A stretch of DNA of 46,872 bases from Dehalococcoidales bacterium (GTDB lineage: Bacteria; Chloroflexota; Dehalococcoidia; Dehalococcoidales; UBA5760). Location: assembly GCA_021161775.1 (NCBI GenBank), contig JAGGZY010000050.1:1-46872 (forward strand), read 5' to 3'. The notes below the pieces were generated by a model, which was not told the DNA's origin, searched no databases, and saw only the letters and a program-made list of their open reading frames with translations. Positions 3,238-26,501 of the stretch are shown here, in pieces (position 1 is the stretch's first letter; the number at the start of each line of letters is the position of its first letter). Position numbers and translations under genes: made by a program.

Positions 3238-3243
3238 GTCATT

Positions 3244-3648
3244 ATGGATAGTGGTAAAATACTCAGTTTAGGTGAGATAATCAGACAACAGCGGCTCATG
3301 ATGTCGCTGACTCAGGGGGAATTAGCCAAGAAGTCGGGGGTATCCCCATCGCATTTGGGCCGCATCGAGAAGGGAGAGCGTTTCCCTTCCGCCCGTATCC
3401 TGCGCCGGATTGCGGGACCGCTAGGTTTTGATGAGAATGAGTTATTTGCTCTGGCGGGTTATCTGTCATCCCCTTCCCCGGGTATTGCTGAGGAGGGGGC
3501 TTCCTATGTGGGGGGTGGACGACTTGACCCTTATGTTGGTAAAGTATTATCACAGGAACCAGTTGAGGTGCAGCGGGCAGTAATTGGCGTCCTTAGTCTG
3601 CTAAAGGGTATTGCCAAGGGCATACCTCAGGAGCGGCTTAAAGACTGA
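3244..3648 (+). CDS. XRE-family helix-turn-helix transcriptional regulator
   Basis: LGEIIRQQRLMMSLTQGELAKKSGVSPSHLGRIEKGERFPSARILRRIAGPLG. Start re-placed to ATG 3244 (track start 3181 lies upstream of the promoter). Confidence 0.9.
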   Translation: MDSGKILSLGEIIRQQRLMMSLTQGELAKKSGVSPSHLGRIEKGERFPSARILRRIAGPLGFDENELFALAGYLSSPSPGIAEEGASYVGGGRLDPYVGKVLSQEPVEVQRAVIGVLSLLKGIAKGIPQERLKD

Positions 3649-3691
3649 CTACCAGTGGCTTGAGTTATGTCTCTCGGGCTAGGGAGAGAAG

Positions 3692-4381
3692 ATGAAGATT
3701 CTGATTATTGAGGATGACTCGGAGATTGTGGAGGCAGTTTCACTGTGTTTTCAACTGCGTTGGAGTGGGGCTACCGTAATCTCAGCGACTCAGGGGGCTA
3801 AGGGGCTGGACCTGGTTGAAACTGAGACCCCCGATCTGGTTGTTCTGGATATAGGACTCCCCGATATGGACGGCTTTAAGGTTCTCCGTGAGATACGGCA
3901 GTTCTCTCAAGTGCCGGTGATAATGCTGACGGTGAGGGGTGAGGATACTGATGTAGCTAAGGGGCTGGAGCTGGGGGCTGATGACTATATAACCAAGCCC
4001 TTCAGTCATATTGAACTGCTGGCTCGGGTACAGGCAGTGTTGCGTCGTGCCCAGGGGGTGTCAGTTACCGGTGATGAGCGTCCCTTTGTTAGTGGTAAGC
4101 TCTCGGTTGATTTCGCCAGTAGGACGGTCAAGATAAATGGCCAGCCGATAAAGCTTACTTTTACCGAATACCGGCTACTCTACTATCTCATCAAGAATGA
4201 GGGGCGACTGCTTACTCACGAGAATCTGTTAAATAAGGTGTGGGGCGAGGGTTATACTGAAGCCAGAGACCTACTCCGGGTGCATATTCAGCACCTGAGG
4301 CAGAAATTAGGGGATAGCGCTGAATCCCCGAAGATTATCGTTACCGAGCACGGGATGGGCTATAAATTCGTCCGACCTTGA
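3692..4381 (+). CDS. OmpR/PhoB-family response regulator
   Basis: REC domain (DLVVLDIGLPDMDGFKVLREIR, LGADDYITKPFSHIELLARV) plus winged-helix C-terminus (LTFTEYRLLYYLIKNEGRLLTHENLLNKVWG...VHIQHLRQKL). Confidence 0.96.
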   Translation: MKILIIEDDSEIVEAVSLCFQLRWSGATVISATQGAKGLDLVETETPDLVVLDIGLPDMDGFKVLREIRQFSQVPVIMLTVRGEDTDVAKGLELGADDYITKPFSHIELLARVQAVLRRAQGVSVTGDERPFVSGKLSVDFASRTVKINGQPIKLTFTEYRLLYYLIKNEGRLLTHENLLNKVWGEGYTEARDLLRVHIQHLRQKLGDSAESPKIIVTEHGMGYKFVRP

Positions 4382-4403
4382 GTCCCTGCTGGTGATTTCC
4401 TCC

Positions 4404-4446
4404 GTTTTTATGAAATCTTCACAGAATCTTTACGGAATATTTATTA
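4404..4446 (+). promoter_or_regulatory. Four 11-bp-spaced direct repeats (PhoB/OmpR-type box), copy A
   Basis: TTTTTAT-gaaa-TCTTCAC-agaa-TCTTTAC-ggaa-TATTTAT; the repeat A residues fall at 4410, 4421, 4432, 4443. Confidence 0.75.
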
Positions 4447-4516
4447 TTTTTATGCCTGCCTTTATACCTGTCTGTTAGATTTAAGCTATAGGATTACTAA
4501 TCGGAGGAATTAGGAA

Positions 4517-5335
4517 ATGGAAAAAATTACAGTTGTTATCTCGGATTGGCAGGTATTCTTCAGGGAAGGGATACACTTCATCCTTTCCAGCGAAGATGAT
4601 ATTGAGGTCATTGGTGAAGCTACCACCAATGAGGAAACTCTGGCTCTCATTGAAGCTGACCCGCCAGCGGTGGCTATTCTAGATATGGGGCATAGCGATG
4701 TCAGTGGTGTTGAGGCAACGCGGCGGATTAAGCGAAACTTCCCCTCAGTAGGGGTAATTTTAATTATTGATGATTATGATGAGGAACAGCTTTTCTTAGC
4801 CGCCAGGGGTGGGGTGAATGCCTACATAACCAAGGAGTCTAGCCCTGATGAGCTGGTTAGTGCTGTTAGGGAGGTAACTCAGGGTAACTGCCCGATAAGT
4901 AAGGTTCTGCTCATTCCTGATATAGCTTCCCGGGTGCTTGATGAATTCCGGGAATTTCCGTTGATGGAAGGGCAGATGAGTAGCCTGCTAGCTCGCCTGT
5001 CGCCAATGGAGAACGAGCTGCTGCATCATCTCACTCAGGGAGCTTCGTCTCAGCAGGTCGCCCAGGTGCTAGATATCGCCGAGCCGGATATTCTCCATCA
5101 CCTCGGAATTATTCTGTCTAAGCTGGTAACTAACCGTCGTAACCTGGAGATGATTGAAACTGCCCAGAGCAGCCTGCGTCCTATCTCCGGGGTGAGTAAG
5201 CCCACTATGGGGTATATAACCAGGGATGAGTTTGCCAGCTTCAAACAGGATTTGATAGCGCGTCTGGAGACCTTTATCAGTCGAATTGAGATGAGTGCCG
5301 GTGGGTTAGCGGGGAGTCGGAATGATAAAGAATAG
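4517..5335 (+). CDS. NarL/FixJ-like response regulator with degenerate LuxR-type output region
   Basis: REC domain (AILDMGHSDVSGVEATRRIKRNFP, LAARGGVNAYITKESSPDELVSAV) followed by a LuxR-like segment (LSPMENELLHHLTQGASSQQVAQVLDIAEPDILHHLGIILSKL). Confidence 0.88.
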   Translation: MEKITVVISDWQVFFREGIHFILSSEDDIEVIGEATTNEETLALIEADPPAVAILDMGHSDVSGVEATRRIKRNFPSVGVILIIDDYDEEQLFLAARGGVNAYITKESSPDELVSAVREVTQGNCPISKVLLIPDIASRVLDEFREFPLMEGQMSSLLARLSPMENELLHHLTQGASSQQVAQVLDIAEPDILHHLGIILSKLVTNRRNLEMIETAQSSLRPISGVSKPTMGYITRDEFASFKQDLIARLETFISRIEMSAGGLAGSRNDKE

Positions 5336-5581: not shown

Positions 5582-5743
5582 ATGGATAACCAGAGGATGA
5601 GGGTGATGTGTGCCTGGTGTGGTCGGGATATGGGGGCAAAGGATGGGCGGGGTATCACTGGGGTGTCTCATGGCTTGTGTGAACAGTGCCGGCGTAGGTT
5701 AGAGCTGAGTATGAGGGGTAAACTGCCCTCCAATTCTTTATGA
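5582..5743 (+). CDS. Small 53-aa double-CxxC zinc-binding-like protein
   Basis: Own translation: MDNQRMRVMCAWCGRDMGAKDGRGITGVSHGLCEQCRRRLELSMRGKLPSNSL*; two CxxC knuckles. Not in the ORF track. Confidence 0.6.
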   Translation: MDNQRMRVMCAWCGRDMGAKDGRGITGVSHGLCEQCRRRLELSMRGKLPSNSL

Positions 5744-5776
5744 AATCCTCATAGAATCTTTACGGAATATTTATCA
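5734..5776 (+). promoter_or_regulatory. Four 11-bp-spaced direct repeats, copy B
   Basis: TCTTTAT-gaaa-TCCTCAT-agaa-TCTTTAC-ggaa-TATTTAT; A residues at 5740, 5751, 5762, 5773; nearly identical to copy A for about 75 bp. Confidence 0.75.
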
Positions 5777-5849
5777 TTTTTATGCCTGCCTTTATGCTTG
5801 TTTGTTAGATTTAGGTGGTAAGACTAAAGGGGGTTAAGGAAGCATAGGA

Positions 5850-5933
5850 ATGAATCAGGAAGGAACAACCCCTAAAATTAACGAAATTTTAACGCTAATT
5901 TTAGGGGTGATTAATATCGGCACCTTAAGATGA
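5850..5933 (+). CDS. Putative 27-aa hydrophobic microprotein
   Basis: Own translation: MNQEGTTPKINEILTLILGVINIGTLR*; lies between copy-B promoter and signal peptidase gene. Confidence 0.3.
   Translation: MNQEGTTPKINEILTLILGVINIGTLR
5868..5908. repeat. Perfect 13-bp-arm inverted repeat
   Basis: ACCCCTAAAATTA (5868-5880) ... TAATTTTAGGGGT (5896-5908), 15-nt loop. Confidence 0.85.
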
Positions 5934-5963: not shown

Positions 5964-6764
5964 ATGAAAAAGGTGGCTACTCGGATAACTTTAATAGTGC
6001 TCCTGGTTATTATTGGGGGTTTTGCTTTTCTGAAACTCTCGCCCAACTACAACATATACCTGGTAAGAAGCGAGAGTATGACCCCTAACCTCAATATGGG
6101 GGATATGGTAATTACTGGCCCTGTCAATGGGCTAATAGGGGGAGAGGTGAAACCGGGAGCAGTTGTAACCTACCAGAGGGAAAAGGGACTGGTTACCCAT
6201 CGGGTGTTGTCAATTAATGGAGATACCCTGGTAACCAAGGGGGATGCCGTTGAGGACCCCGACCCTTGGTCGGTTTCCATGTCGGATATCAGGGGTGTCT
6301 ATCTGTTTCGGCTGCCTTCGATAGGTTACGTATCGAATTTCATTAAGACTAAAACCGGCTGGTTATTATTGATAGTGGCACCATCGGCGGTGCTTTTCGG
6401 ACTGCTAATTAGAAGCATTCTCAAGGAGGTGCGGAAGAAGGCTCAAGATGGGGCTCAGGGGGTGGGGATAGTAACTGCCGAAGCGACTAAGTCAGATGAA
6501 ACCACCCCGCAACCGATTGCGCCCACCGGAGGTTCTGGTAAGGAGGTGGCTTACCCCGCGGCTAGGATGGACAGTTCGGAGATGGTAGCTCAGGGGTTAG
6601 TGATGCTTATCCGGGATATGGTTAAAGATTTACGGAGTAGTCCTGATGTAGTAGCTCAGCAGAAAGGAACCGTGGCTCCAGGTACAGCAGAAGTGGATGA
6701 AACTACGAAGCATCTGGTGGCTGCAATTAAAACTGCGGTAGCTGAACTACGAGGCGGTTATTAA
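5964..6764 (+). CDS. Signal peptidase I, SipW/ER type
   Basis: SESMTPNLNMGDMVIT, VTHRVLSINGDTLVTKGDAVEDPDPWSV with Ser/His-type motifs and flanking TM helices. Confidence 0.9.
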   Translation: MKKVATRITLIVLLVIIGGFAFLKLSPNYNIYLVRSESMTPNLNMGDMVITGPVNGLIGGEVKPGAVVTYQREKGLVTHRVLSINGDTLVTKGDAVEDPDPWSVSMSDIRGVYLFRLPSIGYVSNFIKTKTGWLLLIVAPSAVLFGLLIRSILKEVRKKAQDGAQGVGIVTAEATKSDETTPQPIAPTGGSGKEVAYPAARMDSSEMVAQGLVMLIRDMVKDLRSSPDVVAQQKGTVAPGTAEVDETTKHLVAAIKTAVAELRGGY

Positions 6765-6885: not shown

Positions 6886-7506
6886 ATGAACAAAAAGATA
6901 ATGGGATTAGCGGTGGCGGCAGCCCTGGTAGTAGGGCTGGTAGGTAGCGGCACCTGGGCATACTTCTCGGACACGGAGCAGAGCACGGACAACAGTCTTT
7001 GTGCTGGAACCCTAGACCTCAACATTGACGGTGGTAACACTGCCAGTAACACCTTCTCGGTAACCGATGTTGCCCCTGGTGACAGTGGTAACGGTAACAA
7101 TGTGCTGGCTAATGTAGGTAGCCTGAATGGTGAGCTGGATGTTGAGTTTTCAGCGATTACCAACACTGGTGGAACCAGTGGTGAGTATGGGGATGGTAGT
7201 GGAGACCTGGGTGGAGTAGCTGAGATAGCGGTGTATCTGGATGTTGACCAGAGTGGTACTTGGACGGATGGAGACATTGGGCTTAAGTCTGATGGTACTA
7301 CCTACAATCATCCAACAGCTCTGGACTACGACACTATCGACAACTATGACAGTGAGAGCTGGGATGCGGTTGAGACAATGGCGGCATCAGCGGCTGATGA
7401 CTTTGTGGCTCTGTGGCGAGTGCCTACTTCAGCGGGGAACAATATTCAGGGTGATTGCGTAAGCTTTGATGTTACCTTCATTCTGGAACAAGCCGACGCT
7501 GACTAG
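6886..7506 (+). CDS. TasA/camelysin-like protein with SipW-type signal peptide
   Basis: MNKKIMGLAVAAALVVGLVGSGTWAYFSDTEQSTDNSLCAGTLDLNIDGG; good RBS (AAAAGGAGAAAG). Confidence 0.85.
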   Translation: MNKKIMGLAVAAALVVGLVGSGTWAYFSDTEQSTDNSLCAGTLDLNIDGGNTASNTFSVTDVAPGDSGNGNNVLANVGSLNGELDVEFSAITNTGGTSGEYGDGSGDLGGVAEIAVYLDVDQSGTWTDGDIGLKSDGTTYNHPTALDYDTIDNYDSESWDAVETMAASAADDFVALWRVPTSAGNNIQGDCVSFDVTFILEQADAD

Positions 7507-9768: not shown

Positions 9769-9981
9769 TCAGCTAAATACGGCGGTGATTACTGCCTCTT
9801 TCGGATTATGCTCATCAAAGAAGGTAACCACCAGCTTCCTCCCCGGGGTCATTGCCGACTCCGGCAGGTTTCTGGCTACAGTAATATCCTCCAGATAAGC
9901 CTGGTGGCTGCCAGTTAACTGAATGGTTGCCTTATAATCAGTAGCGTTGAATCTCTTCAGTGTCGCTTTGCTTAGTCTCAT
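9769..9981 (-). CDS. Small hypothetical protein of the phage module
   Basis: 70 aa, overlaps the stop region of the 9978-11996 gene. Confidence 0.6.
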   Translation of the reverse strand: MRLSKATLKRFNATDYKATIQLTGSHQAYLEDITVARNLPESAMTPGRKLVVTFFDEHNPKEAVITAVFS

Positions 9982-11996
9982 CTGACCCTCCTTATACTCT
10001 TCCCAGGGCTAGCCTCGCCTCGTATTTTCCACGGCGGGGGTGATAAACCAAATCCAGCCCGAGGACCCTCCTTATTCTCACCATTAAGCCCGGCGCGGCT
10101 ATCGGTCAGTTCAATAACATCGTATAGCTGCTGACCGCAGTTGGGTGGGGTGTGGATAATACCCCCGCTGGAGGCTATCTCGGCTTGTCTTAGATATACC
10201 TCTCCTCGTTGCTGAGCTTGGGACACGCCGTTGATATTCCGGTCCTCAAGCTGGCGTAATCTATCATAGAGTCGGTTTATCTCATCCCAAGAGAAGGAGT
10301 CAACTATCATCGGCTTATCGTTTACCGGGTCATAGCCCTCGACCTGAACCCGATTAAGCTCCCAGCCCCCCTTTAGGTATCTCCCTTCAACTATGGGGTG
10401 GGATGAGCCATAGGAGTAAACCGAGTTGTCATTGGGGAGGGGGTTTACCACATAGGCTTTACTGCCCTCAATAAATATTACATCGGGGACGAAGGAGAGC
10501 AGCTTGCTGATGACAGCGTCTCCTCGGCTCCCCGGGGGAATGGTAAAATCGGGATAGTAGCTATCCAGAACCGATGACTGGGATTTAATCTCCAGCTTCA
10601 GTCCACATCTTGCCAGCACTAGAGCCAGGATGTCCTTGACACTCATCTCATCGGAGTCTTTATTCCAGCGGAACTGACAGCGGGCGCGCCAGTGTTTAAT
10701 CAGGCTCCAGCCGTCGGAGGCATATAGAATCAGACTGGCGATACCCCCGGCGCTGGTATGCTCACTGGCATCAATCCAGAACTCGGCGCCCGGGCTAACC
10801 TCGTTGCCCCCGGAGGTAACATAGCCGGGGCTGAACTGAAGCTCACTGCCGAGAGCTAGAGCTTTAAGGGAGCCTTCTCCCGGTGAGGAGTACTGCCCGT
10901 CGCTGTTATTTAGCTCAACCGTCAGCCAGCTCTCTCTTTGGCTGAGCTCCTGTCTTACCCTTAATATATCGGCGGTTAGATCGAGGCTCTCGGCGGTGAG
11001 CTTTGCTCTCCATACCCCGCTGGGGTTGGCTAGCCAGTCGTAGTTACCGTGATAGGCGATGGCTAGCCCGTACTCACTGGATAGGTTAAATGGCACCGGC
11101 TCATGCCACCGATTATCAGCGAAATCGGTGTCGGGGATAGTATATGACCAGAAGGGGCGGCTATAGGCTTCGGTGCCGCTAAATTTCTCGATAAAGAAAC
11201 CACGGTAGACATCGGGTTTAGCCAGAAAGGCGTGATGATACTCAAAGCCGCTGTCCGACGGTGCTGAAGCCAGCGGAGTTAGCTCTGACCAACTACCGGT
11301 GGGGCTCGCTCCACCATCACCATAGATGAGGGACCATAGTTTGAAGTTGCCGGCGGTGTCCTTACCGGTAATAAACAGATTCCAGTCGCCATCATAGACG
11401 GTTGCCACCCCGGACAGGTCACCGGTGGTCTTATCCCAGGCGATTTTATTCTGCCAGCTACCGTTTAGATACTGCTTAACATAGAGAGTGCTTTGGTCAG
11501 CGAAAAATAGCGCCAGAGAGCCGTTGGGCTGGTAGGCGGCGGTGATACCATAGATAGCTGATGTCGGGGAATAGTCGATAAGCTCGGGGGACCCCCAGCT
11601 AGCGCCGTAGTCGGTGCTTTTTGACTGGTAAATCTGCCGGGTTCTTTTTATCCAGAAGATGCTGACCTCAGCCCCCAGCGAGCAGCTGGTGGTAGTGACG
11701 ACATCATACTGATTGTGATATACCCACTGGCTAAAGTCTGCCCCCGGGCCGGGGTTAACCACCCGTTGTCGATAAAGCTTTCGGGAGTCGGCAGGTGGGG
11801 TAACCCTTACCCTGATGAGAGAGCCATCACCGGGGATAGTCAGGCTATGAAAATAGTCTGCCTCAGTGCCGGCATACAGCCTTTCCCAGTTTAAGCGGGT
11901 AATATTAGCCAGCCGACTTTTGGCTTTGATATTGACATAGGGGGTATAACTGGCTTCCTGTTGGGCGGTGAGTAGTGATGGTGATAGGCTTCTCAA
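9978..11996 (-). CDS. Phage structural/receptor-binding-like protein with propeller-like N-terminal region
   Basis: 672 aa; sialidase/propeller-like WSxP/YDGDWNLFI repeats and a C-terminal hub-like segment (SWDEINRLYDRLRQLEDRNINGVSQAQQRGEVYLRQAEIASSGG); position after phage head genes. Confidence 0.6.
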   Translation of the reverse strand: MRSLSPSLLTAQQEASYTPYVNIKAKSRLANITRLNWERLYAGTEADYFHSLTIPGDGSLIRVRVTPPADSRKLYRQRVVNPGPGADFSQWVYHNQYDVVTTTSCSLGAEVSIFWIKRTRQIYQSKSTDYGASWGSPELIDYSPTSAIYGITAAYQPNGSLALFFADQSTLYVKQYLNGSWQNKIAWDKTTGDLSGVATVYDGDWNLFITGKDTAGNFKLWSLIYGDGGASPTGSWSELTPLASAPSDSGFEYHHAFLAKPDVYRGFFIEKFSGTEAYSRPFWSYTIPDTDFADNRWHEPVPFNLSSEYGLAIAYHGNYDWLANPSGVWRAKLTAESLDLTADILRVRQELSQRESWLTVELNNSDGQYSSPGEGSLKALALGSELQFSPGYVTSGGNEVSPGAEFWIDASEHTSAGGIASLILYASDGWSLIKHWRARCQFRWNKDSDEMSVKDILALVLARCGLKLEIKSQSSVLDSYYPDFTIPPGSRGDAVISKLLSFVPDVIFIEGSKAYVVNPLPNDNSVYSYGSSHPIVEGRYLKGGWELNRVQVEGYDPVNDKPMIVDSFSWDEINRLYDRLRQLEDRNINGVSQAQQRGEVYLRQAEIASSGGIIHTPPNCGQQLYDVIELTDSRAGLNGENKEGPRAGFGLSPPPWKIRGEASPGKSIRRVR

Positions 11997-12009
11997 ATTA
12001 AACCTCCTT

Positions 12010-12204
12010 TCAGCTCCCTGTCTGCCCTGGCACCCAGGGCGTTCCCCAGAAAAGATGTCCTAGCAGGATACCGAGGGCAACGCTTAGCATAATCCAGATA
12101 AGTGGCTGACGGTGGTAGCAGTCCCGGATAATATAGGTCCAGGGGCGGCCGCCTACCCGGGACCACAGGGCTTTGTACAATTGAGAGAGTCGAGCTCGCT
12201 TCAT
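12010..12204 (-). CDS. Small single-TM phage-module protein
   Basis: PLIWIMLSVALGILLGHLFWG TM helix; start overlaps the upstream stop (TAATG). Confidence 0.55.
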   Translation of the reverse strand: MKRARLSQLYKALWSRVGGRPWTYIIRDCYHRQPLIWIMLSVALGILLGHLFWGTPWVPGQTGS

Positions 12205-12395
12205 TACTTCTCCTTAAACCGTTTAATTGCCCTCTCGCCGAAGTATTCGATAATGACGGCACTGATTAGCCAGCTAAGCGGTTGGGGAATTACTACCCCC
12301 TTCATTACACAAAAGCCATAAATGATGCATCCCCAGACGATAATAAATGGCCTGACGATGCTTTTTACAAACGTTATTCGCTCGTTTAGGGTCAA
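12204..12395 (-). CDS. Holin-like small two-TM protein
   Basis: MTLNERITFVKSIVRPFIIVWGCIIYGFCVMKGVVIPQPLSWLISAVIIEYFGERAIKRFKEK: two hydrophobic segments and a basic tail. Confidence 0.5.
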   Translation of the reverse strand: MTLNERITFVKSIVRPFIIVWGCIIYGFCVMKGVVIPQPLSWLISAVIIEYFGERAIKRFKEK

Positions 12396-12413
12396 TTTTC
12401 CCGCCTCTCCTGG

Positions 12414-13004
12414 TTAATCGATAAACAGCTGATGATCTCTGAGCTGTTGCCTTCGTCCCAACCGCTTCAGGCTATCCCTGAAGGCGGTGAGTCTTTCTTC
12501 CCCCCAGCTTCGGTACTGGTCGGCGGTCATCTCTCCCCCGACATTTACCCGGTTAATGCTGGCGACAGCCTGGCTGATAACCGCGTAGCCGCAGGCCCCG
12601 GTAACTACTAAATCCTCATACTTAGTGGGGACAGTAGAACTGTTAGTGTCAATAGTGTGGAGCACTCCGTAGTAGATACGGCAGTTAGTGCCGTTGGGGG
12701 TATCGCCACTGATTATAACCAGGACATCCCCCCAGATAGAGAAACGCTGGTACTGGGTGGGGAAGGCACCCAGGGGGTATTCTACGGCTTGAACCATAAT
12801 CCGCTCAGTCAGACTGGAGATATCCACGGCTCGGGAGGTGCTTATGGTGGGTAGTATAGCCTCGGCGGGTAGGGGGGTTCTCTCCGATAGTTCCCTCAAG
12901 GCGTGGTTAATATGTCGGGTTAGTTCATCATCTGACCACTGGTAGGGGGTAATCTCATCCTTAAGGTTGTTCCTGACCATGGTTATCATCTCCGATAGAT
13001 TCAC
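12414..13004 (-). CDS. Phage head-tail adaptor/connector-like protein
   Basis: MNLSEMITMVRNNLKDEITPYQWSDDELTRHINHALRELSERTP..., typical adaptor-like opening; overlaps neighbouring gene. Confidence 0.6.
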   Translation of the reverse strand: MNLSEMITMVRNNLKDEITPYQWSDDELTRHINHALRELSERTPLPAEAILPTISTSRAVDISSLTERIMVQAVEYPLGAFPTQYQRFSIWGDVLVIISGDTPNGTNCRIYYGVLHTIDTNSSTVPTKYEDLVVTGACGYAVISQAVASINRVNVGGEMTADQYRSWGEERLTAFRDSLKRLGRRQQLRDHQLFID

Positions 13005-14062
13005 TGCTTTACCTCCTTAGACGGCATTCCGGTTTTCCCGGTGCCTTTGGGCAGTTTCATATCGCTGGTGCCGGCTCGGGCGGCGATTTTAGCCCTGAGT
13101 CGGTCTAAACCCAGGCTGGCTTCACCAGCCACGATTAGGCTTAGTAGGGCAGCGATAGCCTCACTCCTGTAACTGCTGTCGGCGACCAGGGAGAATCGGG
13201 ATAAACTGGCTATATCCAGGCTTGAACCAACATCAATAAGGGGTATTTCTCGGCTTAATAGCTCCTCAATATCGCTACCAGCTTCGGCTAAGGTAATACC
13301 CCGGTTCTTCAAACTCTCTACCCCCGCCTTTAGAGGAATGTTGCCCGTAGTCCAGAGAGCCCCGTGAATTATGCCGTCATTATGATTATCTGTCTCATCA
13401 TAGGCAGTAGAACCCGAGCCTTCATTCATTAACCATAAGCCTACCGTATTAGCATCCTTAGGGAATTGCCTACCCACTCCATTATTCCAGTTAGCGGCTA
13501 TTTCAGCGGGGGTTCTGGGCGTGTCAGAGATACGAACCTGAGAAATGAGGCCGTTGACCGTATAGCCAGTGCTCCCAATATACCAATGTCCAGAATGTAT
13601 CAAGTCGGTGTTATCTCTCTCCACAGTAGATTTTAGAAATCCATTTAGATACAACCTTGCTTTATCGTGGTCGTAAGTAGATGCAAAATACACCCATTGG
13701 TTCTTGAGTAAATCATTCTCATAAATTCTTGGACGAGGCGCACTCCCTTGTGTAGTCGTTATCTTCCATTCTAAGTCGGTGTTATATTTAGAGTAGAATA
13801 AGACATTTCTATCGTCATTTGTCCAAACAAAACGCATATAATCCTTTGACATTTCTGATGGCAAATAGGGAATTTTTACCCACACCTCAATCGTAATCGC
13901 ATCAGTGATGTCCAAAGAGGGGTTATTGCCACAATCTATATAGTCATCTACCCCATCAAAGCTAAGGGCAGAACCATAGCCTTCTCTAACTATGAGGTCT
14001 CGGTCGAGAATTGCCTCTATCCCCTCACTTCCGCTATCGCTGGTTTGTATATCAGTACTCAT
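13001..14062 (-). CDS. Phage-module protein with inserted LamG/concanavalin-like domain
   Basis: ALSFDGVDDYIDCGNNPSLDITDAITIEVWVKI...WVYFASTYDHDKARLYLNGF...GLWLMNEGSGSTAYDETDNHNDGIIHGA is LamG-like; flanks carry short repeats (GIEAILDRDLIV / DIEELLSREIPL). Confidence 0.75.
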   Translation of the reverse strand: MSTDIQTSDSGSEGIEAILDRDLIVREGYGSALSFDGVDDYIDCGNNPSLDITDAITIEVWVKIPYLPSEMSKDYMRFVWTNDDRNVLFYSKYNTDLEWKITTTQGSAPRPRIYENDLLKNQWVYFASTYDHDKARLYLNGFLKSTVERDNTDLIHSGHWYIGSTGYTVNGLISQVRISDTPRTPAEIAANWNNGVGRQFPKDANTVGLWLMNEGSGSTAYDETDNHNDGIIHGALWTTGNIPLKAGVESLKNRGITLAEAGSDIEELLSREIPLIDVGSSLDIASLSRFSLVADSSYRSEAIAALLSLIVAGEASLGLDRLRAKIAARAGTSDMKLPKGTGKTGMPSKEVKQ

Positions 14063-14115
14063 CGTTTTCTTCCCTCGTCCCCGGGGGTAGTCAAAGCTAC
14101 CCCCGGTTAGGATTC

Positions 14116-14631
14116 TCAGCTTAGGGTTATGGATACCTCCAAGGTCCAGGTACCTGAGGTTTTGGTGCCCAAATTCTCTACCTTACGGTTGAGACAGATA
14201 GAGCTAGTTGATTGTTTGACCACCCATTCGTTCCAGGTATAGTTGGCGTCATCTGAGCCAAAGCTGGCTTTAAAGGTTGCCTGCTGTGATGTTGATGTGG
14301 GGTAGTTGGCCTCCATACCCTTATAGGTTTTGTTAGTTGCGGCTTGCAGGTCGGTTTGGGTAGCCTCGGCGGCGGTGCTACTGTCACCGACCCCGATTTG
14401 AGCGTGGGGGTTATCGTAGATATGGTCGGCCCCAGAGACTACCCCGGTAATAAGGTCCCACATCTCGTCAATTCCGGAGTTTAGCAGGCAGTTGTGTTCC
14501 CCCTCTATCACCTCATAGGGCTCAAACTGCTGGTGAAACTCGCCCTCCCGGCTCTGGTAAGGCTTAATGTCCTCGTGATATTTGCTGAGCCGATAGTGGC
14601 AATACCAGTTGGCGTGTTCTCTATTTTCCAT
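14116..14631 (-). CDS. Phage-module structural protein, hypothetical
   Basis: 171 aa directly downstream of capsid gene; IGVGDSSTAAEATQTDLQ and WTLEVSITLS C-terminus. Confidence 0.6.
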   Translation of the reverse strand: MENREHANWYCHYRLSKYHEDIKPYQSREGEFHQQFEPYEVIEGEHNCLLNSGIDEMWDLITGVVSGADHIYDNPHAQIGVGDSSTAAEATQTDLQAATNKTYKGMEANYPTSTSQQATFKASFGSDDANYTWNEWVVKQSTSSICLNRKVENLGTKTSGTWTLEVSITLS

Positions 14632-14652
14632 TCTTTCATCTCCTGTGTCGAG

Positions 14653-15576
14653 TTAATCGGTAATCCCGATTAGGGCGGCTGCCTTAATCGCGGAGAATAG
14701 GGCCAGTGAGCAATACCACTTAATTCGAGTTCGGGAGGCGTCCTTGGTTTCCAGTGAGCCGATAGGCTCTACCTGCAGGTATCCTGGACTGGTTAAGCCA
14801 CAGAGGGCTCCTTCTCCGAACTGGACGGCATAAATGGTGGAGCAACTGCCGCCGGTGGTAGCTGTCTCTAGGCTGGAATCGAGGGTATGGGTATCCAGAA
14901 TCCAGTCATTGACTCCGACGGGAATACTGTCCCATAACTGGACAAAGTTACCGAAGCTGTCTTTTTCGGTTACCATCATTCCTGAGCCTGAGGCTCGGAC
15001 GAGGTTATTAATCTTCCTCCGGGTGCGGCGGCTCATCAGGAGTATATCGGGTTTACCCCCCTTTACGGCGTCAATAAGCTCATCTAGCTTATCCAGGGTG
15101 AGAGTAGCTCCGGTAGCCCCCATCGCGATTACCTGACTGCTTGCGGTGGTGGTATCAATTAGCTTCCTAAGGCCATCAAACTGCTTGGCATTGACGGCGG
15201 GGTCTCCATAGATAACCGTCTCCTCGAATTTGTCCTTGAGTGCCTTTGCCTTAAGTTCAATGACCGCCGCTTCCAGGTCCTGGATATTAGAGCGGGTTGC
15301 CTTGAGGAAATTATCAATATCGGCGTCACCGCCCATAATCTTTAGGGTAGTGGTTACCTGTTCAAAGGTTGGGGTTGACTCGTTCCAGGGGTCGCCAACA
15401 TCGTAGAAATCAATCGAGGGCAGGGTGTTCTCCTGGTTATAGGTTAATCCATTACCCACAATCTCAATAAAGGGGAGTTTCTGCAGTATCGGTGAGTTCT
15501 TGATGATGGTTTCCACGACTCCCTGAAGGAGCATATTATTAGATAGTTTGGATGCCTCGTTTAGTGTTAGTGCCAT
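14653..15576 (-). CDS. Phage major capsid protein
   Basis: MALTLNEASKLSNNMLLQGVVETIIKNSPILQKLPFIEIVGNGLTYNQEN..., HK97-type-like opening; sits between scaffold and adaptor genes. Confidence 0.8.
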   Translation of the reverse strand: MALTLNEASKLSNNMLLQGVVETIIKNSPILQKLPFIEIVGNGLTYNQENTLPSIDFYDVGDPWNESTPTFEQVTTTLKIMGGDADIDNFLKATRSNIQDLEAAVIELKAKALKDKFEETVIYGDPAVNAKQFDGLRKLIDTTTASSQVIAMGATGATLTLDKLDELIDAVKGGKPDILLMSRRTRRKINNLVRASGSGMMVTEKDSFGNFVQLWDSIPVGVNDWILDTHTLDSSLETATTGGSCSTIYAVQFGEGALCGLTSPGYLQVEPIGSLETKDASRTRIKWYCSLALFSAIKAAALIGITD

Positions 15577-16047
15577 TTATTTATCACCTCCTATGGCGTA
15601 TCGAATCTTCTGTCGTGGTGACAGGGATGAGTGGTCAAGTGGTGTTCGTGGTGGAGCCCCGGCAGGAATCCGGGTAGCTTGAATTTCAGTCTCCAGGCTC
15701 TGTCTCACTTGGCTAATCATGCCTTTAGCCTGCCTCAGTGACTCGTTGATAGCCGGGATGCTGTCGCCGGTGATAAGCTCCGCTGGCACCTCAGGGTTGG
15801 TCTGCATTACCATTGTTCGGTAGTTGACTAACGCCTCGCCTAGGGAATTATCTGCCGTCTTGAGTTTTTCGGTTGACTCGGTGAGCCTCTGTTCCAACTC
15901 AGTAATGTGGCTATTGGCTTGGGTCAGCTCCTCATTCTGCTGAGCTACCTGGCCCTCAAGCTTGGCAATTTGGGATGCCAGGCTCTCTTCAGTCTCGGTA
16001 TTTTCAGGAACTGGGTCTTGATGTTGCTTTATCTTGTCATCGGTCAA
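15577..16047 (-). CDS. Phage scaffolding-like coiled-coil protein
   Basis: Glu/Gln-rich coiled coil (IAKLEGQVAQQNEELTQANSHITELEQRLTES) between portal and capsid. Confidence 0.7.
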   Translation of the reverse strand: MTDDKIKQHQDPVPENTETEESLASQIAKLEGQVAQQNEELTQANSHITELEQRLTESTEKLKTADNSLGEALVNYRTMVMQTNPEVPAELITGDSIPAINESLRQAKGMISQVRQSLETEIQATRIPAGAPPRTPLDHSSLSPRQKIRYAIGGDK

Positions 16048-16085
16048 TGGTCGTCCTCCTCTAGGTTATTTTCTAATACCCGCAG

Positions 16086-17453
16086 CTAGGATTGGTTAGC
16101 TCTCCCTCTCGCTTCATTCCGAGCCGGTTTGGTATTAAGCTCCTTGTTCATGCTGAGGATAATCTGGCGTTCCTCAAGCCAGCGGTTAAATTCTGCCTCA
16201 GGGTCTTTAACCCCGACCTCATCCATAGCGCGTCGTCTGGAGTGGACACCGTTCTGAATCAAGGTCTGCTCGTTGGCTACTAGCCGCTCCTTGTCCTGGG
16301 GCAGGAGCGGTCCCCAGACTACTCGCAGATGGTTATTACCGAAGTTCTCATGATGGTATTTTTCGAGGAGTTTGAGGATTAGCCGGTTTCGCTGGTTGTA
16401 GGCGGCACTGCGGATAAGACGCTTCCGTTTTACCTTCTGTAGCAGGGGCTGAAGCTCAAGCTCAAGGGCTACCCCGGACAGGTTCTTCTCGGTACCACCG
16501 AAAGCAGAGCGGGGTGACTCTGAGATGTCATGCAGGGTCCGATAGAGCAGGTTGAGGTAATCGATATGTAGCCCGACACCACCCCCTTGAAGCAGGTCTA
16601 GCAGATAGGCTTTAGCATCCTCAGGTATATTCCAGACTGCCCCTGGCTTAACCGCGATATCCTCAGATTCCTCGATGTTCTCCAGTACGGCGATAGGGTT
16701 ACCCGATAGCTCTAGTATTCTTGATAGCTGGCTCATTGCCCGGTTAAACTCACGCTGGGGCGGTATTAGCTGGCGCAAATCCGACATTCCCCAGAATTTT
16801 TTAGGCTCCCTCAGATTAGGATAGATAATAAACGGGATAAATCCGTAGGGATTAGGCTTACTGGTTACCAGATTGTTATCTATCCAGAGCTCAAACCCCT
16901 CGGTGGTCCATAACTCGGTAATCTCAGCGGTTTTCCCCTTGGGGGTTACCTTATACAGGATTTCGGTTTCGTCTGAGGTCAGCCGATATTTAGAGGCGAC
17001 CCGCCATAGTCTGGAGGTGTCGTCCCCCACCCACCAGGTGTGGATGCCCTGGATATCGGGGGCAGTAATCCTGACCCGTTTGGTCGCCGCGTCCCAGATA
17101 ACCTTAAAGCAGGCATCTCCCAGGAGGGCACAGTCAATCTCGGTCTCAAAATCAAGTTGTTCTAGATTGTTGTCTTCGTATACCTGGTATAATGCCTGCT
17201 CAGCCCGCTGCGCCCTGGCTCTAGCCTCATCGGAGTCATCGATGGGGTCAACAGCAAAGGTTACTCCTGACATCAGATATGAGGTAAGCTTATCGATAAT
17301 TACCTTGGCATAGTTAAAGACCAGGCGTTTCTCACCTCGCCGGGGATAACCCTCCCACTGCTGACCGTGGTAGAAATCAAGCAGTTCCTGATAACCCTTG
17401 AGCCGACTCAGGTCGTGGTGATTTAGCTGTGCTGGAGTAAAACCTTCATTCAT
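16086..17453 (-). CDS. Phage portal protein (SPP1-type-like)
   Basis: LLDFYHGQQWEGYPRRGEKRLVFNYAKVIIDKLTSYLMSGVTFAVD...LRQLIPPQREFNRAMSQLSRILELSGNPIAVLE. Confidence 0.88.
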   Translation of the reverse strand: MNEGFTPAQLNHHDLSRLKGYQELLDFYHGQQWEGYPRRGEKRLVFNYAKVIIDKLTSYLMSGVTFAVDPIDDSDEARARAQRAEQALYQVYEDNNLEQLDFETEIDCALLGDACFKVIWDAATKRVRITAPDIQGIHTWWVGDDTSRLWRVASKYRLTSDETEILYKVTPKGKTAEITELWTTEGFELWIDNNLVTSKPNPYGFIPFIIYPNLREPKKFWGMSDLRQLIPPQREFNRAMSQLSRILELSGNPIAVLENIEESEDIAVKPGAVWNIPEDAKAYLLDLLQGGGVGLHIDYLNLLYRTLHDISESPRSAFGGTEKNLSGVALELELQPLLQKVKRKRLIRSAAYNQRNRLILKLLEKYHHENFGNNHLRVVWGPLLPQDKERLVANEQTLIQNGVHSRRRAMDEVGVKDPEAEFNRWLEERQIILSMNKELNTKPARNEARGRANQS

Positions 17454-17733
17454 GGCTAACCTTCTTTAATGCCCTCTGCACAGTTCGTTGACTAACGCCA
17501 AACAGTAGGGCTAGCTCCTTTATTTTTCTTCCCTTGACATATAGCTCTAATATTTCCCTATCCCGCAGCTTTCTAAGGTAGCGTTGCTTACCTCCGGGCT
17601 CGTCATAGATACACCTCTCGAAAGGGCAGTTGAGACAGGAATTGGCGAACTCACAACCGTTATCATGGTAGTGGCAATACTCTGGCGGTAGGTCTAGTTC
17701 ATCGGAGCTCACTATCAAATCCTTAGTTCTCAT
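17446..17733 (-). CDS. Cys-rich helix-turn-helix protein co-translated with portal
   Basis: MRTKDLIVSSDELDLPPEYCHYHDNGCEFANSCLNCPFERC...ILELYVKGRKIKELALLFGVSQRTVQRALKKVSHE; stop overlaps portal start (ATGAATGA). Start re-placed from 17802 to ATG 17733. Confidence 0.7.
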   Translation of the reverse strand: MRTKDLIVSSDELDLPPEYCHYHDNGCEFANSCLNCPFERCIYDEPGGKQRYLRKLRDREILELYVKGRKIKELALLFGVSQRTVQRALKKVSHE

Positions 17734-17770
17734 ATCTATCTCACCCGAAGGGATGGTCAGGATGTTAGAA

Positions 17771-17786
17771 TAGCACATATGTTCTA
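17771..17786. promoter_or_regulatory. LexA-like near-palindrome, head operon
   Basis: TAGCACATATGTTCTA, 7/8 arm match; on minus strand it lies between TTGATT and TATTCT. Confidence 0.6.
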
Positions 17787-17834
17787 ATATAATCAATAGC
17801 ATTTTGTCATCATCTTAGGGGATGGCTATCGGCA

Positions 17835-17877
17835 TTCTTTATAAAATCTTCACGCCATCTTTAGGTAATCTTTATTG
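17835..17877 (+). promoter_or_regulatory. Four 11-bp-spaced direct repeats, copy C
   Basis: TCTTTAT-aaaa-TCTTCAC-gcca-TCTTTAG-gtaa-TCTTTAT; A residues at 17841, 17852, 17863, 17874. Confidence 0.75.
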
Positions 17878-17935
17878 TTTTTATACCGGTCTTTATAGCC
17901 GTGGATTATCTTAGAGAAAGAAAGGAGATAGTGAG

Positions 17936-18034
17936 ATGGTAAGAAAGATAATTAATGCCCCCCTTCCGATTAGGTTGCTGATCTCGATTGGTGCCGGGAT
18001 TACCGCCGCCTTCATAAGTTATCTGCTGGGTTAG
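17936..18034 (+). CDS. Putative 32-aa single-TM microprotein
   Basis: Own translation: MVRKIINAPLPIRLLISIGAGITAAFISYLLG*; RBS AAAGGAG upstream; directly downstream of copy C. Confidence 0.5.
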   Translation: MVRKIINAPLPIRLLISIGAGITAAFISYLLG

Positions 18035-24712: not shown

Positions 24713-24812
24713 GGCTATTATGTCGGCGAAAAGGAAGCTAATTAATAGTAATTAGCTTCCTTTGGCGTTTCGTGGTGAGTATTGGGTGGCGGCTTTAACC
24801 AGCAGTGCCAGG
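24713..24812. repeat. Right copy of imperfect duplication flanking acs cassette
   Basis: GGCTATTATGTCGGCGAAAAGGAAGCTAATTAATAGTAATTAGCTTCCTTTGGCGTTTCGTGGTGAGTATTGGGTGGCGGCTTTAACCAGCAGTGCCAGGC. Confidence 0.8.
24730..24763. terminator. Perfect 15-bp-arm inverted repeat, likely bidirectional terminator
   Basis: AAAGGAAGCTAATTA-ATAG-TAATTAGCTTCCTTT; overlaps the terL stop codon. Confidence 0.75.
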
Positions 24813-26122
24813 CTCATCAGGAAATCGTCGTGTCCCTGGATAGGGTCAACACCAAAGCTCATTGTCTGGTTGGGGTGGTACTGGCTTTTCGCCCTCTCCA
24901 TCTCCCGCCAGAACTCCTGCTCCTCTGCTGAGCTATCCCCGGCGTACATTTTCAGTCGGCCCGAGTTAATCGCTGCCAGCAGGTTAAAACCGAGGGCTGA
25001 TTTTGACTGCGCTGTGAAGGTAAACGGCAACACCTTTGAACCCAGGGCTTGCCTGAGGAACGAGCTTACCGGTTGGCCCATCCCGGTAGCATCAACTACT
25101 ATCTTGCGACAGTGCCAGATATTTTTCAGAATGTCAATCAGCTGGGGATAAAGCTCGCTATATTTCTTCCCTGTCCACCAGTAGTGCTCCACAATATTAA
25201 TCGTGGGTTGCTTAATCAGCTCACTACAGCTGGAAAAGTTCAGTTCCCCGATAGTAACTACCGTAGCATCCCGACTGGATTGGGCTTTTCCTTCCTCAGT
25301 CTCCCCGGCAAGGTCAATACCGGCGAGGTAAATCTTGCCTGATTCAGGCTGGTGTTGCCGGGGATGCCGTCCGCTTAGCTGAGCCAGCTGCTGGTGGTTG
25401 AGGTAACCCCCGCCGCTATGGACAGGTAACAGTCGGTATTGGGTGAGGAAAAGGGGGTGGTTCTCCCCCAGCCGCTGACGCTCGGCATTAACATAACTCA
25501 GGTAATCAGGGTTATATTTGGCTACTGCCTGCCAGTCATAGCGGAAGTGACGCCTAATGCCGTCTTTTCTCTCCAGTTCCAGATTGGAATTCTTTATCTC
25601 TTCCAGCAAGGTTGAGCTATCCCAGGTGGTTCCGTAGTGAACGGTGGTAACATTGCTGGTAGCTCCCATCGGCTTGAACTCTTTATTATATTTTTCCCGA
25701 CTGACGTCCTGGGACTCGTCTATCTCGAGCAGTATATGTGCGGTGTTGCCGACTACATTGGCGGACTTATCTGCCGATAGAAAGATAGCCCTGGTATTTC
25801 CTAGCCTGATGATATAGCCCAGCTCGCTTACCCATAGTCCGTTAAAACCGGCGTCATTGAGTCGGTCCTTGAGCCTCATTATGGAGATAACGGTCTGTGG
25901 CTTAAAGGTGGGGGAGCACTTGATTAGATTTTGGGGCTTGGTCATATACAGGGTAAGAAGTAGCAGTTCCAGCTGAGCCGAGAGCTCATTCTTGCCCCCC
26001 TGTCGGGCAATCTCTACGGAGAAGGTGAGCCCCTTCCTGCTGAAGATACTGTCGAGTATCGCCAGCGCCACCTCTTTTTGATAGGGCCTGAGTCGGTTGA
26101 TTGAAGATGAGGGGTTAGTCAC
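24752..26122 (-). CDS. Phage terminase large subunit
   Basis: Walker A-like ARQGGKNE, Walker B-like HILLEIDESQD, nuclease-type YLAGIDLAGE / KIVVDATGMGQP / DDFLMSLALL. Start re-placed to GTG 26122 (VTNPSSSINRLRPYQ). Confidence 0.9.
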   Translation of the reverse strand: MTNPSSSINRLRPYQKEVALAILDSIFSRKGLTFSVEIARQGGKNELSAQLELLLLTLYMTKPQNLIKCSPTFKPQTVISIMRLKDRLNDAGFNGLWVSELGYIIRLGNTRAIFLSADKSANVVGNTAHILLEIDESQDVSREKYNKEFKPMGATSNVTTVHYGTTWDSSTLLEEIKNSNLELERKDGIRRHFRYDWQAVAKYNPDYLSYVNAERQRLGENHPLFLTQYRLLPVHSGGGYLNHQQLAQLSGRHPRQHQPESGKIYLAGIDLAGETEEGKAQSSRDATVVTIGELNFSSCSELIKQPTINIVEHYWWTGKKYSELYPQLIDILKNIWHCRKIVVDATGMGQPVSSFLRQALGSKVLPFTFTAQSKSALGFNLLAAINSGRLKMYAGDSSAEEQEFWREMERAKSQYHPNQTMSFGVDPIQGHDDFLMSLALLVKAATQYSPRNAKGS

Positions 26123-26132
26123 TATTTGCCTG

Positions 26133-26501
26133 CTATTTGATAATATTAGTCCCGATACCGAGCCCCAGTGGCAGGGCAATATCCCTGAGGACGTTACCTA
26201 CTGCCTCCTTGAGCCCCTTCTTATCGTTCTTACTGATGTTGTACCTCGTCCCCACCAGTCGGGACAGGGTAGTGATTGCCTGCATAATGAGATTGATGTT
26301 ATCCGGGTCGTGGGTGATGAGGGACTTTATCTTGACCCTCAGCAGGGCAATTTCATCATCAATACCCTCTACCTTGGTGGCTAACTCAAAGTCTCGTTGT
26401 TCGGTTTCGTCAAGGACCTTGGAGTAAAAGCCGTGCTTTCTGGCGTACTGATTACCCTTGGGAGCGCCCCGTTTATTCTCGGTTTTAATGGTTGACTTCA
26501 T
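26133..26501 (-). CDS. Putative terminase small-subunit-like protein
   Basis: MKSTIKTENKRGAPKGNQYARKHGFYSKVLDETE..., phage-type opening, immediately upstream of terL. Start re-placed from 26540 to 26501. Confidence 0.6.
   Translation of the reverse strand: MKSTIKTENKRGAPKGNQYARKHGFYSKVLDETEQRDFELATKVEGIDDEIALLRVKIKSLITHDPDNINLIMQAITTLSRLVGTRYNISKNDKKGLKEAVGNVLRDIALPLGLGIGTNIIK

Follow-up and report, generated by a model that had tools for sequence, protein, structure and literature searches.

Operators of the OmpR/PhoB family consist of direct half-sites in tandem, with a spacing close to one helical turn. In the Pho-box layout, 11-bp direct repeats stand 10 bp before the -10, and the OmpR operators of ompF and ompC place several tandem dimer sites 5′ of one promoter. 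The fibre systems of Bacillus, in which a dedicated SipW-type peptidase lies beside a camelysin/TasA-type substrate, are under Bacillus biofilm regulators. For KdpE, the operator of E. coli kdpFABC reads TTTATA-N5-TTTACA (PMC3264566, PDB 4kny), and one of the arginines through which the protein contacts DNA is reported to be conserved only in KdpE orthologues (PMC3264566).

The window analysed here, a 46,872-nt stretch of DNA from a Dehalococcoidales bacterium, holds three promoters that carry the same array of TTTAY half-sites. We estimate a probability of about 0.75 that this element is the operator-promoter of a Dehalococcoidales two-component regulon, in which the OmpR-family response regulator RR1 (3692..4381, + strand) would bind and activate the gene of a second response regulator, RR2 (4517..5335, + strand), together with surface and secretion genes. 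The regulon described is new, but of a familiar kind; a search of the open-access literature found no description of it.

The likeness to KdpE involves both the DNA and the protein. The half-site is TTTA(T/C) in each system and the 11-bp repeat consists of a 6-bp half-site and a 5-bp spacer, so that the TTTAYA-N5-TTTAYA pair is recovered here except that the sixth base is mostly G, not A. The contact residues R193, H198, R200 and T215 (the wing Thr) of KdpE correspond to R196, H201, R203 and T218 of RR1, which has the Arg reported to be conserved only among KdpE orthologues. The systems differ in that kdpFABC has two half-sites and the present array six, and in their targets, no kdp gene having been recognised among the downstream genes read at element sites. 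The RR1 locus also has no KdpD-type kinase, and the kinase of about 240 aa found in relatives has no evident sensor region. With 183 bits for a KdpE equivalog cut-off of 325 and 182 bits for a PhoB cut-off of 296, RR1 misses both family thresholds and is therefore filed as neither. The array shares with ompF and ompC the multiple tandem sites before one promoter, whereas its half-sites are nearly uniform and an identical array type stands at several promoters. With the Bacillus fibre systems the locus shares the peptidase-substrate pairing; it differs in its OmpR-type array and in falling below the NCBIfam TasA and Bacillus SipW cut-offs.

The array and its copies in the genome

All three copies in the window lie on the + strand: copy A (4401..4481) is the promoter of RR2, copy B (5731..5811) that of a SipW-type/camelysin operon, and copy C is at 17832..17912. 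The original prediction had described four exact units, spaced by 11 bp, in each of these promoters. All 12 adenines by which it placed them are correct (4410, 4421, 4432 and 4443 in A; 5740, 5751, 5762 and 5773 in B; 17841, 17852, 17863 and 17874 in C), and four units at that spacing are present. The array is longer, however, with two further half-sites 3′ whose A residues are at 4452 and 4464 (A), 5782 and 5794 (B), and 17883 and 17895 (C), making six TTTAY half-sites spaced by 11, 11, 11, 9 and 12 bp. Exactness holds only for copy C, where the 7-mer T[CT]TT[CT]A[CTG] fits 4/4 units; unit 4 of copy A is TATTTAT and unit 2 of copy B is TCCTCAT. The copies, said to align over about 75 bp, do so over about 80 bp, with identities of 69/80 (A/B), 58/80 (A/C) and 55/80 (B/C). 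An extended -10 follows the array, TGTTAGATT in copies A (4473-4481) and B (5803-5811) and TGTTATATT in a fourth copy, D; the corresponding region of copy C, GATTATCTT, is weaker. In copies A, B and D the last half-site is 10 bp from the -10 hexamer.

The OmpR-family geometry that had been proposed for these repeats is borne out by the self-similarity of the profile, which is 0.52 and 0.505 at lags of 11 and 22 bp and 0.25-0.36 at the remaining lags, and by the invariant columns described below; at other periods (8-15 bp) no three-unit chain occurs anywhere in the window. With up to 3 mismatches, the 4x11 pattern matched three times in the window, compared with 0.00 matches in 100 dinucleotide shuffles. 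When the whole genome (934 kb, 98.9% complete) was searched in the same way, as the original prediction had suggested, there were 4 matches and 0 for a reversed-pattern control. These are the four full copies, A, B and C in the window and D on another contig (C54:17146-17222); a partial fifth array lies at C1:1564-1614 on the - strand. A profile derived from relatives, with copy A left out, scored 86, 80 and 62 for copies B, A and C, whereas the same profile gave a background of -91 ± 16 in the window and a reverse-strand maximum of -18.5. Chance similarity is ruled out by the pattern searches with their shuffled and reversed controls and by the profile scores against background.

Conservation of the element in Dehalococcoidales

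When the pattern search was run on 156 genomes of the order, 34 of them held about 50 sites in total, compared with 2 for the reversed control; many of the sites lie immediately 5′ of RR2 orthologues and, where the genes are linked, 3′ of RR1 orthologues. Orthologues of RR2 are present in 38 of these genomes, of RR1 in 37 and of both in 36, with a score gap to paralogues. The repeats, whose absence from orthologous promoters the original prediction had offered as evidence against itself, are present in relatives: among the 37 stretches compared upstream of RR2, one from the window and 36 from relatives, nearly all carry the array. One stretch (L093) is broken by a run of N, three (L104, L106 and L109) fit the profile poorly and still contain TTTA boxes, and in G111 RR2 is cut at a contig end, its promoter lying outside the comparison. 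Over 33 RR2 promoters from many families, 18 columns are invariant. In four genomes (G030, G031, G075 and G138) the RR1 and RR2 matches are on separate contigs and the array is found at RR2, which indicates that it is part of the RR2 promoter rather than of the end of RR1.

A sequence-only profile built from the 33 RR2 promoters was run on all 156 genomes with a cut-off of E<1e-6. It matched in the 38 genomes with RR2, in G084, which has RR1, and in G050, G089, G100 and G137, the first three of these being incomplete members of RR1-bearing genera. The element thus occurs in 37/37 genomes with RR1 and 6/119 without (p=6e-30, phylogeny being modelled only as far as a count by genus, which gives 23/23 against 3/62, p=7.5e-18). 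Array-bearing genomes in which an RR1 orthologue was not found include G047 (90% complete; RR2 and two arrays), G074 and G137, and because many assemblies are fragmented such absences are weak evidence for single genomes. Outside the order, the sole strong match among 393 genomes sampled from the class (G360, E=7e-9) lies 5′ of a small membrane protein that, as we read it, is similar to the DUF5658 proteins which follow sites within the order. The array shared by three promoters of the window recurs beside the same regulator pair in dozens of related genomes. Very probably, therefore, it serves as operator in a real, undescribed control circuit that governs cell-surface proteins; the circuit would be of OmpR/KdpE-like type rather than a phosphate switch.

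Candidate regulators of the array

The most likely binder is RR1, a linked OmpR-family regulator with an intact receiver and winged helix (Pfam Response_reg and Trans_reg_C), whose closest solved relative is KdpE (4kny). Its Asp53 is kept in 31/31 aligned orthologues, its recognition helix ARDLLRVHIQHLRQKLGD is nearly invariant, and its C-domain has a mean majority frequency of 84%. The original prediction had named this neighbour as the probable regulator and called it PhoB-like; the OmpR-type assignment is supported, and the PhoB-like label is not, given the score noted above. As a member of the OmpR/PhoB superfamily with KdpE-like DNA-contact residues, RR1 would bind head-to-tail, with up to three dimers on the six half-sites and the last pair placed over the -35 position; an extended -10 of the form TGnTARATT lies 10 bp further on. 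Because that pair would cover the -35 position, RR1 would activate promoters that lack a -35 box, both the -10 and the mode of activation being read from sequence. The core target would be RR2, a NarL-type partner usually without a phospho-acceptor; the other targets here would be the SipW-type signal peptidase, camelysin/TasA-like and related secreted proteins and a 32-aa peptide, and the regulon would also take in small membrane proteins. Several observations count against this model: half-sites 4, 5 and 6 are spaced by 9 and 12 bp, not 11; the -10 of copy C is poor; RR2 tracks the element as well as RR1 does; G047, G074 and G137 carry the array and no RR1 orthologue was found in them; and a further regulator of the present genome (C22b) likewise has the KdpE-type Arg and His.

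Since both regulators track the element about equally well, co-occurrence does not choose between them, and RR2, itself of NarL/LuxR type, might bind the array and autoregulate with RR1 merely a neighbour. The element is found with RR2 in 38/38 genomes and the RR2 gene is always adjacent, an agreement that is in part by construction because the profile was trained on RR2 promoters; this does not apply to its agreement with RR1 or to sites at other genes. Against binding by RR2, its HTH is variable, averaging 57% majority frequency, while 18 columns of the boxes are invariant, and six direct half-sites at 11 bp are the geometry of the OmpR family. Its phospho-acceptor Asp, kept in the window protein and in one other sequence, is lost in 36/38 aligned sequences (N 22, S 12, G 1, A 1). 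The 11-bp geometry, the invariant helix and the KdpE-type half-site and contact residues favour RR1 over RR2 as the candidate binder, and we regard binding by RR2 as unlikely.

Another of the six OmpR-type regulators in this genome could occupy the arrays, alone or with RR1, either the product of C54:7165-7857, 55% identical to RR1, which belongs to a kinase-regulator pair about 9 kb upstream of copy D, or the KdpE-like C22b with its KdpE-type Arg and His. This is improbable, as the element follows RR1 orthologues in 37/37 genomes and the recognition helix of the C54 protein differs (NVKKYVYRLR).

The conserved first gene of the locus encodes an XRE-type HTH protein (3241..3648, + strand), and in relatives the histidine kinase of about 240 aa lies between it and RR1. 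The kinase is absent here (window 3648-3692), which makes RR1 an orphan regulator at the locus. A genome-wide search for an RR1 kinase found only relatives of at most 43% identity, the closest being the C54 kinase at 43%; as the best relative, it may be a putative source of cross-phosphorylation of RR1.

A phosphate-starvation regulon, as the original prediction implied, is very improbable. The 11-bp direct repeats 10 bp before the -10 do recall the Pho-box layout, the two sharing OmpR-family repeats and a last pair that replaces the -35. The half-site, however, is the KdpE-like TTTAY and not the TGTCA of Pho boxes, RR1 is below the PhoB cut-off, and the downstream genes read include none recognised as pst or pho. 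The genome has a PhoB-like regulator-kinase-pstS-like locus on contig C19, so named from its sequence, and no array is present there (best profile score about -20). The idea that the arrays play no part in regulation and are mobile DNA or recent duplicates can be set aside: copies A and B are similar and two G047 sites are nearly copies of one another, but beyond the element the A and B flanks fail to align, matching only at background level (10/60 and 14/60), the same columns are invariant across 33 promoters from distant families, and the sites are correctly oriented before the starts of recurrent gene families.

Candidate target genes and the setting of the locus

Downstream genes were read at 88 sites, each assigned to the nearest ORF, and recurrent families begin within about 150 nt of the element. 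They comprise RR2; S26 signal peptidases in 6 genomes, this one among them, with peptidase promoters read at L088, L032, L095, L176 and L090; a protein of about 97 aa, present in 15 genomes, whose N-terminal part includes a hydrophobic segment; a 114-aa protein (11 genomes), followed in several cases by a GH3-like gene; a 33-40-aa protein (9 genomes); and DUF5658 membrane proteins, secreted proteins and a few more response regulators. A motif, Y[VI][TS][RK]xEFxxF, is common to the RR2 C-terminus, the array-controlled 114-aa family and several C54 proteins, and in a search of 2991 frames all matches listed below E=1 came from those three groups; it may be a contact module. At two further loci, L244 (G128) and L220 (G072), sites lie 5′ of two related secreted proteins. 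The one in G128 has a caspase-like sequence, and its site, a weak one (E=5e-4), is directly behind a distant RR1 homologue.

Within this genome, copy A precedes RR2 and copy B precedes the SipW-type (archaeal-type) signal peptidase (5964..6764, + strand; TIGR02228, 72 bits against a cut-off of 52), whose operon includes a camelysin/TasA-like protein with a SipW-dependent-type signal peptide (6886..7506, + strand; Pfam PF12389, TIGR04088). Copy D precedes a secreted protein of unknown family and the partial copy on C1 a camelysin-family protein. The targets in this genome thus point to a single function, represented on separate contigs by a SipW-type peptidase and proteins of the camelysin family. 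The SipW operon has a long leader, which contains a 16-bp inverted repeat (5868-5908) with two TTAACG words 11 bp apart within it. A structured RNA in this leader was considered and rejected, with no Rfam match nearby and a fold only weakly better than shuffles (z=-1.56).

The first ORF after copy C, 24 nt from it and with a good ribosome-binding site, encodes 32 aa with one hydrophobic segment (17936..18034, + strand), and the TIG gene starts about 580 bp beyond, behind another HTH ORF. No terminator was found between the 32-aa ORF and the TIG gene, and for that reason read-through from copy C into TIG is possible. The HTH-TIG pair of a relative (G111) is preceded by TTGACA-17-TATAAT and no array. 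The proposal that RR2, the SipW/fibre operon and the TIG surface-protein cluster form one regulon is supported for the first two, whose promoters both carry arrays, and is weak for the TIG cluster.

In a genome of the same genus (G003), the XRE gene is followed after about 500 bp by a phage-like block, and RR1, RR2, the peptidase and the fibre genes are all absent. Because RR1-RR2 sits between XRE and the phage-like block in many other families, loss of the locus in the genus is a simpler reading than gain in the present genome. In the window this head/packaging block occupies 9978-17802 and 24752-26179 on the - strand and encodes a major capsid protein (phrog_212, E=4e-72), an SPP1-type portal, an SU10-type adaptor, and late-activator-like and terminase-like proteins. 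The capsid gene is present in 84/156 genomes of the order, complete ones included, is nearly always single, and is 70-85% identical in most full-length matches; a literature search on the block found nothing. It looks like a domesticated, possibly gene-transfer-agent-like module. At about 19 loci, genes of the block lie 3′ of RR2. The element-RR2 unit stands beside the capsid/portal/adaptor module, and so, in several genomes, does the element-peptidase unit. That RR1 and RR2 form a switch coupling surface-fibre secretion to this domesticated phage-head cluster is nevertheless doubtful. A second island in the genome (L011, C54:5335-18313) ends with copy D; it contains a kinase-regulator pair paralogous to that of the window and several secreted proteins that resemble one another in their N-terminal anchors.

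The order has been little studied, and most of what is known of it comes from metagenome assemblies; these results define an operator for it, point to a likely regulator and supply a short list of targets. They also correct the label attached to the sites, which match the KdpE half-site and not the Pho box, and they expose an unusual regulator pair in which the receiver of one partner, RR2, is usually without a phospho-acceptor.
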